From: Arthrobacter psychrochitiniphilus
Lineage (GTDB): Bacteria > Actinomycetota > Actinomycetes > Actinomycetales > Micrococcaceae
Direction of reading: 5' to 3'
Length of the DNA: 64,000 nt
NCBI RefSeq assembly: GCF_003185915.1
Contig: NZ_QHLZ01000005.1
Coordinates: 186,001-250,000, forward strand
The notes below the pieces were generated by a model. It saw only the letters and a list, made by a program, of their open reading frames with translations. It was not told the origin of the DNA and did no database searches. This document shows positions 53,154-60,845 of the stretch, piece by piece (the stretch's first letter is position 1; each line of letters begins with the position of its first letter). The translations under genes and the position numbers were made by a program.

Positions 53154-53585
53154 GTGGCGCGATTGAGTATTCTTGACCGTTTCAGGCCTGTGGGTGCGCC
53201 AGGCCCGGCTGGCCCGTCAGGTGTCCCAGCCGTTGACGACCAGGGCCCCGCGATGGAATTGACGCCTGTGTTCGCAGCCTTGGCCGCCGATGTCAAAGCG
53301 GGTGAATTGCTGGTCGAGGAGGCTCGTCGCCAAGCCGAACATGACGTAGCGGCGGCACGGACCCAAGCAGCGGCCATGGTGTCCCAAGCTCGACTCGATG
53401 CCAGTGCGGCACGCGCCGAAGCGGCCGCCCAGGTTCAACGTGAGGCCCAGGAGAGGGATTCGCGGGCTATGGACCAGGCTGCCCTGGAGGCCAATGCTCT
53501 GGAAGAGTCCGGATTAGCCAGGATTCCCGCCGTCGTCGCCAAGGTCATCGACACCCTGCTCAGCCCACGGAAAGCTGGACGGTAA
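53154..53585 (+). CDS. V-type ATPase stalk subunit (G/H-like)
   Basis: A 143-residue protein whose second half is a long alanine/arginine/glutamate-rich coiled coil (AELLVEEARRQAEHDVAAARTQA type sequence), as in the peripheral-stalk subunit that pairs with subunit E. I chose GTG 53154 because GGAGG lies 5 bases before it; upstream in-frame sequence is not family-like. A proline-rich lead (PVGAPGPAGPSGVPAV) precedes the coil. It is the first gene of the nine-gene V-ATPase operon; its TAA abuts the next ATG. Confidence 0.75.
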   Translation: MARLSILDRFRPVGAPGPAGPSGVPAVDDQGPAMELTPVFAALAADVKAGELLVEEARRQAEHDVAAARTQAAAMVSQARLDASAARAEAAAQVQREAQERDSRAMDQAALEANALEESGLARIPAVVAKVIDTLLSPRKAGR

Positions 53586-54511
53586 TGGAGGCGGGCTGGG
53601 TTGCGGCATCCGTTCGGGCCCGATCCATGGCGCAGCGCCGTGTGGGGGCTGGTACCAGCCGTACACTGGCCACAGAACCTACCTTGGATGCTGCACTCTC
53701 CTCACTGCAAGAGTCAAGCTATGCGGAACGACTCCACGGCGTGTCAAGTCTTTTCGTCGCTGAACGCGCCGTTCAGGAGGCCTGCTTGTGGCAGCTTCGA
53801 GTGCTTGCTGGCTGGCTTCCAGCCTCCGGCACCGCACTCGCCCGGGCCGCGGCGGGCATTTTTGAAATTGAGAACATTGTGGCTTTAGCCCACCAGCTCG
53901 ACGGCGGCCCACCAGCTCCTGAGCCCTATCGTCTGGGTACGCTGGCGACCGCCTGGCATCGCCTCAGTTCGGCTGGTTCACGTGAGGAACTCGCCACAAT
54001 CCTGCGCACCTCGCCTTGGAAGGGTGCCGATGGCGGTGGGCGGGGACCGCTACGGCCCGCGTTGACCGTGGCCTGGGTGCGCAGGCTGGCCGTCATCGCA
54101 CCCCCGGCGCAGTCGTGGTGCGGCGCCGTGTGTGTCCTTACTGCTGCACGGAGTCTTACGGTTGACGGCGTTCTTCCGGAACGAGCGCTTCTGAACTTGT
54201 TACGCCCTGTTCTTGGCCGGGCATGGGAAAGCGCAGACAGCATCAGCAACTTTCGCACAGCGCTGCCGCCGTCGCTGCAAAAAATAGTCGGCGATATTGA
54301 CTCGCCGACTGAACTTTGGCGCGCGGAGGCCCGTGCGCATACCGCTGTGGAGTCGGATGGATTCCGGCTCCTGCGCCACTCCAGACCCGGACCTGACGTT
54401 GTGCTGGGGGCTATTGCTGTCCTGTCGATGGATGCGTGGCGCGTGCGGGCCGCCCTCGCAGCGGCTGCCGCCGGTGCCGGCTCAAGCGAGGTGCTTGATG
54501 AGGCCGCGTGA
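53585..54511 (+). CDS. V-type ATPase subunit C
   Basis: A 308-residue helical protein at the position of the funnel-shaped V0 subunit C/d, which connects the rotor ring to the central stalk. The repeated small-residue helical segments (AGIFEIENIVALAHQL, ALLNLLRPVLGRAWESAD) fit the family, although no short diagnostic motif exists. The assignment rests mainly on operon position and length. The stop overlaps the start of subunit I by 14 bp. Confidence 0.75.
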   Translation: MEAGWVAASVRARSMAQRRVGAGTSRTLATEPTLDAALSSLQESSYAERLHGVSSLFVAERAVQEACLWQLRVLAGWLPASGTALARAAAGIFEIENIVALAHQLDGGPPAPEPYRLGTLATAWHRLSSAGSREELATILRTSPWKGADGGGRGPLRPALTVAWVRRLAVIAPPAQSWCGAVCVLTAARSLTVDGVLPERALLNLLRPVLGRAWESADSISNFRTALPPSLQKIVGDIDSPTELWRAEARAHTAVESDGFRLLRHSRPGPDVVLGAIAVLSMDAWRVRAALAAAAAGAGSSEVLDEAA

Positions 54512-55817
54512 ATCGCTGGCGCCAGCCCGGATGCAGCGGGTAGCCCTAGTGGTGGCGGAACAGGACAGGGCGAGCATGCTCATGGAAATTGCCCGCAACG
54601 CGCTGGTGGAACTGGACCTACCCTACGAGCCCGGCAATGGCAGCGGGGAAGTGGACAAGGCCGCGGCGGCCGCCGTCGTCAACGGGCCCACGGCAGCGTT
54701 GGTGGGCTGGACTCCGCAACACGGGATTCCCGCACTCACCGAAGCACTAGCCCCGCTGGGTGCCGCAGTTGTTCCGCTGCCCGGGCCGAGGTGGATCCAA
54801 CCTCCCACGTTGTTCGGTGGAAGCAGCCGTGAAGGAATGTCTCGGACACTCGTGGACACGTACGGGACAGTGCCGTACGCGGACCTTGACCCTTCACGCC
54901 TCGCGGCACTGGCCTATGTCCTGATGTTCGGAATAATGTTCGGCGACGTCGGACATGGGGCGATGTTGCTGGCCTGCGGTTTAGTGTTGCGCAGCGGGCG
55001 CATCAAAAAACTTGCTTCCCTAAAAAGGGCCTGGCTTTTTGTGAGTGCCTCCGGGATGGCCGCCATGGTTTTCGGAGCACTATACGGGGAGGCCTTCGGT
55101 CCCACAGGACTGGTTCCTGTGCTGTGGCTGGAACCTCTAGCCAACCCGGTGCCACTTCTGTTGGCAGGCCTGGGTGTCGGGGCTTTCCTGCTTGCCGGAG
55201 CTTACGCCGTCGGCACCATCAACCGTGTACGGGAGGGAGGCTGGGGCTTGGCGCTCTATGCCCGCTCCGGTGCTGCAGGTTCACTGTTGTTCCTATCCGT
55301 GGGGCTCCTCGTTTGGGGGCTCGCCGCGGGCATCGGAATCTTGACCGCCACCTCAATCGTGCTTAGTTCTGGCTCACTCGTCTTCATTTTCATTGGCCTG
55401 TACGTTGAAGCCGGAGGCGGGGGTACCGCCGTCGTCCAAGCATTCATCGAACTCATGGACACGATCATCCGGCTGGGTTCCAACATTGTCTCCTTTGCCC
55501 GGCTCGCCGCGTTTGGGTTGACTCACGCCGCCCTGTTGATGGTGGTCTGGAACGGTACGACGGCGTTGTGGGTGCCAGGGTGGCGCGCAGGCGCTGCGGT
55601 ACTGCTGTTCCTGGTGGGGAACATTGTTACCTTTGCGCTGGAAGCCCTGGTCGCAGGAATTCAGGCACTGCGGTTGGAGTATTACGAGTTGTTCTCACGC
55701 ATTTTTCAAACAGAGGGGCGCCCCTTCAAACCGTGGGCGCCGGAAGCAACCACCGTCGGCAACCCGGCCACCACAACGGCCGATACAGGCATCCCAGCTG
55801 AAAGGCAACTACCGTGA
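54498..55817 (+). CDS. V-type ATPase subunit I (a subunit), short
   Basis: The 439-residue stator membrane subunit that forms the ion half-channels. The membrane domain is clear: [47 protein letters not shown], and [25 protein letters not shown] with the essential Arg of the channel. The N-terminal cytosolic domain is only about 135 residues and lacks the long coiled coils of 600-650-residue homologs. The ATG at 54498 sits within the end of subunit C behind GAGG. Confidence 0.9.
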
Positions 55818-60243: not shown

Positions 60244-60245
60244 AA

Positions 60246-60845
60246 ATGAGCGGCACGGGACGCGCGGCAAGGGTTCGGCTTGAACGTCGCCTTGAAACAG
60301 CGCGCCACGGTGCGCGCCTTTTGGACCGCAAACAGCGTATCTTGATGGATCAGATTGAACGGCTACACCTGCACATGGACCAGACCCGGGCGGAGTGGGA
60401 GGATCTCGCCGGGGAAGCTGCCGTGTGGCTGCGTCGCTCAGCCGCCCTGGACGGCAGCGCCCGGATAGCGGCGGCGGCGCCGTTGGCCGACGCTACAGTA
60501 TTTTTCCGGTGGGGTAACGCGATGGGTGTTACGTATCCCGAAGATGCGCAATGCGCTCTTCCTGCGTTGCTAGCGCAGTCGGGAAGTTCGGCTCTATCCT
60601 ACGCTGCTTCTGTCCATCGCAGCGCGCTCGTTGCTGGAGCCCGCCATGCCTCTATCCAGCGCGCTGAGTTGCTGCTGGCTGCTGAACTTCTGGCAACCCG
60701 GACACGTCAGCGAGCGGTTGAGAGCCGGTGGATTCCCAAGCTGGAGGACGAGCTGGCGAATATTCGAAGGCAGCTCGACGCCCAGGAGCTTGAAGAGAGC
60801 CTGCGCCTTCGCTGGGCCGCCGACAGGAAGTCTGGCGACGGATGA
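60246..60845 (+). CDS. V-type ATPase subunit D
   Basis: The 199-residue rotor shaft subunit: a long antiparallel coiled coil (RLERRLETARHGARLLDRKQ at the start, LLAAELLATRTRQRAVE and ELANIRRQLDAQELEESL at the end). It is the last gene of the operon. Gene order G/H-C-I-K-F-E-A-B-D gives a complete V/A-type rotary ATPase. The direction (ATP-driven pump or synthase) and ion (H+ or Na+) are not determined by the sequence. Confidence 0.9.
   Translation: MSGTGRAARVRLERRLETARHGARLLDRKQRILMDQIERLHLHMDQTRAEWEDLAGEAAVWLRRSAALDGSARIAAAAPLADATVFFRWGNAMGVTYPEDAQCALPALLAQSGSSALSYAASVHRSALVAGARHASIQRAELLLAAELLATRTRQRAVESRWIPKLEDELANIRRQLDAQELEESLRLRWAADRKSGDG

Follow-up and report, generated by a model that had tools for sequence, protein, structure and literature searches.

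The window analyzed here, a 64,000-nucleotide stretch of the Arthrobacter psychrochitiniphilus genome (positions 186001-250000 of contig 34, C34; genome size 4.05 Mb), carries an operon of nine open reading frames (ORFs) for a V/A-type rotary ATPase, located on the + strand between 53154 (or 53085) and 60845. The operon encodes a complete, conserved enzyme of a distinct actinomycete form, and its assignment to the V/A class is near certain. The operon itself is partly ordinary, being of a known kind that is spread across actinomycetes; the more interesting part is a reduced stator arm, formed by subunit I, in every operon measured. We give a little better than an even chance to the reading that these genes specify a V/A rotary ATPase of a distinct lineage, probably proton-coupled, with a reduced and perhaps single-stalk stator, and often encoded near stress genes.

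Subunit I has a shortened stator arm

In the V/A-ATPase of Thermus thermophilus, the arm of subunit I consists of two lobes and a coiled coil, where each lobe holds one stalk made of subunits E and G (EG stalk) and the second lobe carries the distal stalk. Subunit I of the window has 439 residues, the length given in the preliminary description, when started at ATG 54498, and its open frame extends to 509 residues. In all 67 actinomycete operons with the needed genes, the corresponding protein has 410-501 residues (median 441), where the starts of the relatives were taken as the candidate nearest the previous stop and the lengths may be off accordingly. Judged by the refuting condition that the preliminary description itself had set, these lengths do not support its proposal that a short subunit I is peculiar to this genome.

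The position of the first transmembrane helix (TM1) locates the shortening. In 68 short subunits I (the 67 and that of the window), TM1 is marked by a motif that begins at residue 130-212, compared with residue 320-408 in the 14 long ones where this motif was detected; the starts of the phylum loci were set at the first possible codon, making their TM1 positions upper bounds. Not counted in the long set are L147, L152, L154 and L156, where no motif was detected, L150 and L158, which were missed, and 20 of the 30 loci from the phylum, which yielded no motif. In a profile comparison, residues 48-420 of the window protein align with residues 270-642 of Rubrobacter subunit I (E value 8e-39), and together the alignment and the TM1 position give a net loss of ∼220 residues of the cytoplasmic arm. 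Among the matches listed from other classes of the phylum, subunit I frames are mostly 650-800 residues, and each of the eight listed frames below 570 residues is truncated at the edge of its contig.

An ordinary V/A-ATPase in which subunit I was shortened here by sequencing error, frameshift or gene decay would also account for a protein ∼170-260 residues below its matching NCBIfam models (608-701 positions). However, the recurrence of a comparable length in 67 operons from many genera already refutes this and rules out a frameshifted or truncated gene, invariant residues occur in both the lobe and the membrane part of the short form, and the genes are intact and overlapping, such that we regard an artifact of this kind as wildly improbable.

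An AlphaFold2 model of subunit I, built from an alignment of 54 of 70 sequences with the window included, has a mean predicted local distance difference test score (pLDDT) of 83.4 and contains one α/β lobe at residues 12-94 (block pLDDT 91-98), followed by a weakly predicted linker and then the helices of the membrane part. The canonical two-stalk arm, in which a coiled coil connects two lobes, is seen neither in the alignment nor in the model; both have a single lobe and no coiled coil. All 39 Foldseek matches of the model at an E value of at most 0.001 are a/I subunits of V-type ATPases. VIA-align superposes the model on residues 2-649 of the Thermus subunit (6qum_N) with Z 15.9 over 371 aligned residues and a root-mean-square deviation of 9.5, a high value that we attribute to the placement of the lobe. 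Within the membrane part, the sequence SFARLAAFG holds what we take to be the essential channel arginine, and the arginine motif is present in 68 of 68 subunits I.

A separate gene for the lost arm was sought by searching the genome with a profile of seven long subunits I, which at an E value of at most 1 returned only the known subunit I, aligned from position 248 of 641. The lobe that was lost is inferred to be the distal one, with which the distal stalk and the brake would have gone. The subunits I of L049, L055 and L076 (Mycolicibacterium, Streptomyces) carry ∼50 extra arm residues with a shared PDLxxxERxGRxDLLxGE, which may be left over from the longer arm or may have been acquired anew.

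The operon and its other subunits

All nine ORFs of the V-type operon were found where the preliminary description placed them and in the order that it gave, G/H-C-I-K-F-E-A-B-D (Table 1). The gene overlaps that it mentions are present at seven of the eight junctions, and B and D are separated by 2 bases. The GTG start of subunit G agrees with its relatives; the upstream ATG at 53085 is likewise open and would give 166 residues.

Table 1. Genes of the V/A-type ATPase operon in the window
Subunit	Position	Strand	Length and supporting matches
G/H (peripheral stalk)	53154..53585	+	143 residues from GTG 53154; PF16999 E=1.1e-4 best, under cut-off
C (d-type socket on rotor ring)	53585..54511	+	308 residues; PF01992 E=0.0023, under cut-off
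I (a)	54498..55817	+	439 residues, ATG 54498; PF01496 73.7 bits, membrane half
K (c, proteolipid)	55814..56257	+	147 residues; PF00137 at residues 84-143 only
F	56254..56544	+	96 residues; PF01990 E=0.0035, under cut-off
E (peripheral stalk)	56541..57062	+	173 residues; PF01991 26.5 bits, cut-off 24.2
A (catalytic)	57050..58798	+	582 residues; NF003220 649.9 bits; P-loop GGFGTGKT, GERGNE
B	58795..60243	+	482 residues; NF003235 583 bits
D (central shaft)	60246..60845	+	199 residues; PF01813 91.8 bits

Pfam searches with the window proteins place A, B, D, I, K and E over the family cut-offs and G (E value 1.6e-4), C (0.0023) and F (0.0035) under them; the A and B models of NCBIfam are likewise over cut-off, and subunit A contains the PF16886 domain. 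Catalytic A and non-catalytic B keep their active-site motifs. The shaft is represented by D through PF01813, by F through PF01990 in its relatives and by C through a structure model, and the membrane domain of subunit I, with its channel arginine, is identified by PF01496, the motif and the model. In the stalk pair, E passes PF01991, and G remains under the PF16999 cut-off.

The conservation of the motifs was read across 80 loci, the best 80 of 226 relatives of subunit A from a scan of species genomes, which span Arthrobacter, Cryobacterium, Demequina, Cellulomonas, Nocardioides, Mycobacterium, Nocardia, Streptomyces, Kribbella, Actinoplanes and others. In the 80 rows compared for A (the window, L155 and 78 of the 80 loci, L013 and L037 being too short), the P-loop is present in all 80, 79 of them as GGFGTGKT, and GERGNE is also present in 80 of 80. 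The same P-loop occurs in Rubrobacter, Pseudonocardia, Subdoligranulum and Acetoanaerobium and not in the other seven outgroups. The B motif YxDLAxxYER is found in 75 of the 80 loci and is absent in L045, L052, L053, L074 and L081. A script read the gene order G-C-I-K-F-E-A-D in 54 of 80 loci, the remainder apparently being incomplete or having a subunit missed or misplaced by the script; B was omitted because its model picks A as well.

The alignments of C, F and G hold 29, 25 and 25 sequences, respectively; each combines the window protein with a selection out of those available (66, 64 and 62). Since a PF01992 profile search of the genome missed subunit C, its identity was tested through relatives and a model: PF01992 matches 20 of 29 aligned C (best 3.8e-8), and for the model, built from the 29 sequences (pLDDT 93.3, predicted template modeling score 0.90), the first 18 matches in the Protein Data Bank (PDB) are all C/d subunits of V-ATPases, from Thermus, yeast and mammals. 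A search of the PDB with the C sequence profile gave no V-ATPase chain, and its one match at an E value of 0.23 is taken as chance. Subunit F is matched by PF01990 in 24 of 25 aligned sequences (best 1.9e-7), and its profile of 74 positions matches residues 1-70 of the 115 residues of Enterococcus NtpG (E value 1.2e-4). This leaves a homologous core of ∼70 residues, from which the C-terminal segment of canonical F is missing; five outgroup F have 104-128 residues, compared with 96 in the window.

The identity of G is based mostly on its place, length and helical make-up, with PF16999 matching 6 of 25 aligned G (best 1.1e-4). In addition, G has a conserved N-terminal extension of ∼40 residues (LxRFRPxGxPG ... 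EL), where P16, G17, E35 and L36 are invariant in the 25 aligned sequences; on reading, it is absent in four of four outgroup G, which have 102-114 residues.

Subunit K consists of an N-terminal two-helix leader, an alanine-rich linker and a single hairpin with one intramembrane glutamate. The glutamate motif is found in 67 of 67 K, with a glycine directly after the glutamate in each. The preliminary description of this proteolipid as having four spans but one glutamate is correct in its count and not in treating the first two spans as a proteolipid hairpin. In the alignment of 67 K, the first two helices lack the proteolipid pattern, unlike the first hairpins of four-span outgroup K, which by reading are of proteolipid type without the glutamate. 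A duplicated proteolipid with a lost glutamate is ruled out by the restriction of PF00137 to the second half and by a leader that is unrelated to it. The supposition that this form is peculiar to the present genome is likewise not supported, with a similar length in all 67 K measured across actinomycete operons. The linker contains P-x-x-A in 57 of 67 K, whereas 500 shuffles gave 27.5 on average and 37 at most, and in sequence this looks like a signal-peptidase site.

Distribution and origin

Subunit A was detected in 37 of 395 family genomes (own included) with E values below 1e-248, where the next-best matches (3.6e-35) are probably F-type subunits, bearing out the earlier statement that most genomes of the family lack a V-type operon. 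It is present in 27 of 29 genomes of one genus (g32) and in 10 of 366 other family genomes, including 5 of the 23 genomes of the window's own genus. At the level of the class, the short-I profile has matches in 13 of 394 genomes, or in 11 of 360 when genomes of good quality are counted.

A tree of subunit A was built with 87 rows, after seven rows of one Arthrobacter group were dropped from 94 and genomes of that group without a species name were left aside, and carries support only from the Shimodaira-Hasegawa-like approximate likelihood ratio test (SH-aLRT). The clade that holds all short-I operons has 76 rows, a branch length of 1.35 and support of 100, with subunit I not measurable in every row. 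Rubrobacter and a Pseudonocardia plasmid form a separate pair.

It was proposed at the outset that a phylogeny of A and B could reveal transfer, and in the tree of A transfer is neither shown nor excluded. Arrival of the operon in this genome or genus through transfer within actinomycetes would fit its occurrence in a minority of the genus and its patchiness in the family beyond one genus, as well as the placement of Cryobacterium and Salinibacterium rows between Micrococcaceae groups (SH-aLRT 88-90). However, the window clusters with four members of its own genus (SH-aLRT 99), and a single Micrococcaceae clade is not rejected (approximately unbiased test, AU, p 0.309). Transfer would also leave the short subunit I unexplained, because that form is clade-wide. 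We regard arrival by transfer as fairly unlikely; for the origin of the operon, long presence with much loss and some transfer within actinomycetes are both compatible with the data.

Comparison with known V/A-ATPases

The subunits of the Thermus enzyme (PDB 6qum, 6ly9) are homologous to those of the window, and the folds of its I and C match, although Thermus subunit I has 652 residues and two lobes with a coiled coil where the window has one lobe. The Enterococcus V-ATPase (E. gallinarum plasmid L152; E. hirae in the PDB) has homologous A, F and I, but with the order I-K-E-C-F-A-B-D, a subunit I of 664 residues and a four-span K whose first hairpin is, by reading, proteolipid-type without the glutamate.

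The plasmid operon of Rubrobacter radiotolerans (L147) comes from the same phylum and shares with the window the P-loop GGFGTGKT and neighboring genes for universal-stress proteins (USP) and a P-type ATPase. Its K is likewise a single hairpin, by reading a bare one of 72 residues. It differs in a subunit I of 656 residues, an A outside the short-I clade and the order D-(G)-I-K-E-C-F-A-B, where G was assigned by reading. The Streptomyces fungicidicus plasmid operon (L155) lies within the clade and has the order of the window, with a subunit I of 500 residues in which the part ahead of TM1 is longer by ∼50 residues (motif at 195); its annotation names I as "116kDa subunit family" and lists F, E and G as hypothetical.

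Other plasmids carry further arrangements. On the 58 kb plasmid of Pseudonocardia broussonetiae (L148, 8567-15176), V-type F, A and B are followed directly by a P-type ATPase, with no further V-type subunit annotated within this stretch of a gene table that may be incomplete. Two alphaproteobacterial plasmids (L153, L156) have the V-type order B-D-I-K-..-A with subunits I of 597 and 593 residues.

Melissospora actinomycete strains have been reported to have gained A/V-type synthase genes, where the part of the report available to us gives their presence and does not describe subunit I (PMC12451618). Searches of the open-licence literature, which excludes most subscription papers, turned up neither a short subunit I nor a V/A enzyme with a single stalk for actinomycetes.

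Proposed mechanism and alternatives

In the proposed mechanism, A3B3 would hydrolyze (or make) ATP and the D-F-C shaft would rotate the c ring, with one glutamate per hairpin. Ions would cross at the arginine of subunit I and, judged from the conserved residues, would most likely be protons; a Na+-V-ATPase would be expected to have Na+ ligand residues around the proteolipid glutamate. The stator would be formed by one EG stalk on the remaining membrane-proximal lobe of subunit I. We infer a single stalk because each Thermus lobe holds one EG stalk and subunit I keeps one lobe, and we consider the chance of a single-stalk stator to be about even. The N-terminal extension of G perhaps reinforces this stalk. 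In Thermus, contact between the arm and subunit C helps silence free Vo, and this contact would be absent in the actinomycete enzyme. The proposal in full is a natural single-stalk V/A-ATPase of actinomycetes in which I is without its distal lobe and its coiled coil, G provides a newly gained anchor, the tail of F is gone and no brake between arm and C acts on free Vo; in this form it falls slightly short of an even chance.

Several points weigh against this proposal. Stoichiometry cannot be read from sequence, and the small lobe, or the G extension, could accommodate two EG stalks. The structure models are of single chains only, and the ion and the direction of pumping are predictions from sequence. 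By eye, the first 40 residues of subunit I resemble a canonical start, and the profile alignment begins only at residue 48. The enrichment of P-x-x-A is no proof that K is cleaved.

One alternative is that two EG stalks are kept, with the second on the G extension, on C or on the membrane part of I; the enzyme would then have the usual two stalks of a V/A-ATPase and differ only in the compactness of its arm. The conserved N-terminal motif of G in the 25 aligned sequences could substitute for the lost lobe, the helical part of G is retained, and E is only somewhat shorter than its counterparts (173 residues compared with 196-227 in five outgroups). On the other hand, the Thermus-like second lobe is missing from both model and alignment, the profile search detected it nowhere else in the genome, and we consider the two-stalk arrangement rather unlikely.

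The main role of the enzyme could also be ATP synthesis rather than pumping, as one glutamate per hairpin would, after cleavage of the leader, give a high ratio of ions to ATP. In favor of such a role, K is a single hairpin that follows a leader, and 57 of the 67 K have a site like that of a signal peptidase, but leader cleavage is only predicted and genes for an F-type synthase are also present; we regard synthesis as fairly unlikely to be the main role. The presence of an F-type enzyme elsewhere in the genome had been raised in the preliminary description, and a search confined to subunit a and the α/β family placed the former at C36:152765 and two genes of the latter at C36:155773 and 158414 (locus C36:152765-159055). 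Under the favored reading, the V/A enzyme would operate in addition to the F-type one, and its task may be to expel protons at the expense of ATP when the cell is under stress.

Rotary ATPases have been sorted by stalk number, with one in F, two in A and three in V (PMC6131620). If true, a one-stalk V/A enzyme would mean that stalk number is not tied to catalytic family and that V-type rotary catalysis can be uncoupled both from the number of stalks and from the brake. It would also offer a small experiment of nature on how the distal lobe and second stalk contribute to torque and to the shutting of free Vo. For actinomycetes, this is a further rotary pump to account for, with genes that fall partly under family cut-offs (G, C and F here) and that annotation tables can list as hypothetical, as for G, F and E in L155.

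Gene neighborhood and regulation

The operon had been described as lying beside a stress island, and the region is indeed rich in USP and P-type ATPases: 6 of the 16 USP matches of the genome fall within C34:220-302 kb, and 3 of its 9 P-type ATPases within C34:180-231 kb. Across the 80 loci, with a flank of ∼11.5 kb per locus on average and expectations from the density in this genome, USP relatives are near 20 (3.5 expected) and P-type ATPases near 15 (2.0 expected). Judged only from these gene neighbors, a stress role for the enzyme is perhaps indicated. Three considerations temper it: the counts ignore shared ancestry and rest on the density of one genome, 60 of 80 loci have no USP relative nearby, and the 20-base consensus that we assume for the DosR-type box has no match in the window at up to 3 mismatches. 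Hypoxic control is therefore unsupported. Matches to GGGNCNNNNGNCCC numbered 3, compared with 4.5 expected.

Phosphoketolase-like and P-type H+-ATPase-like genes are adjacent at 41320-46273 of the window, and also in several genomes of the genus (for example G113:C77, G277:C1), where they make up a small separate module. A close P-type copy (at least 77%) occurs in 9 of 23 genus genomes, 3 of the 5 with the V-type operon and 6 of the 18 without it, and a close full-length phosphoketolase (at least 87%; two with one internal stop) occurs in 7 of 23. A link of the V-type operon to these genes within the genus is unsupported by the counts; both occur with and without the operon, which is therefore a separable module.

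The pattern GNGACNTTGGACCC is present in three copies (window 34624-34637, 62505-62518 and 63670-63683) close to where two universal-stress genes and one PNPOx-like gene (named by reading) begin, and the copies lie upstream of these genes if later possible starts are used. Three copies compare with 0.03 expected for a pattern that was fitted after the sites were seen. No copy was found at the V-ATPase operon or in 164 other loci scanned, and in sequence GNGACNTTGGACCC is a possible regulator box. Lastly, a ferredoxin-reductase-like ORF at window 32913-34429 has an odd central part and shares sequence with an overlapping diacylglycerol-kinase-like ORF (both named by reading); a frameshift is possible.

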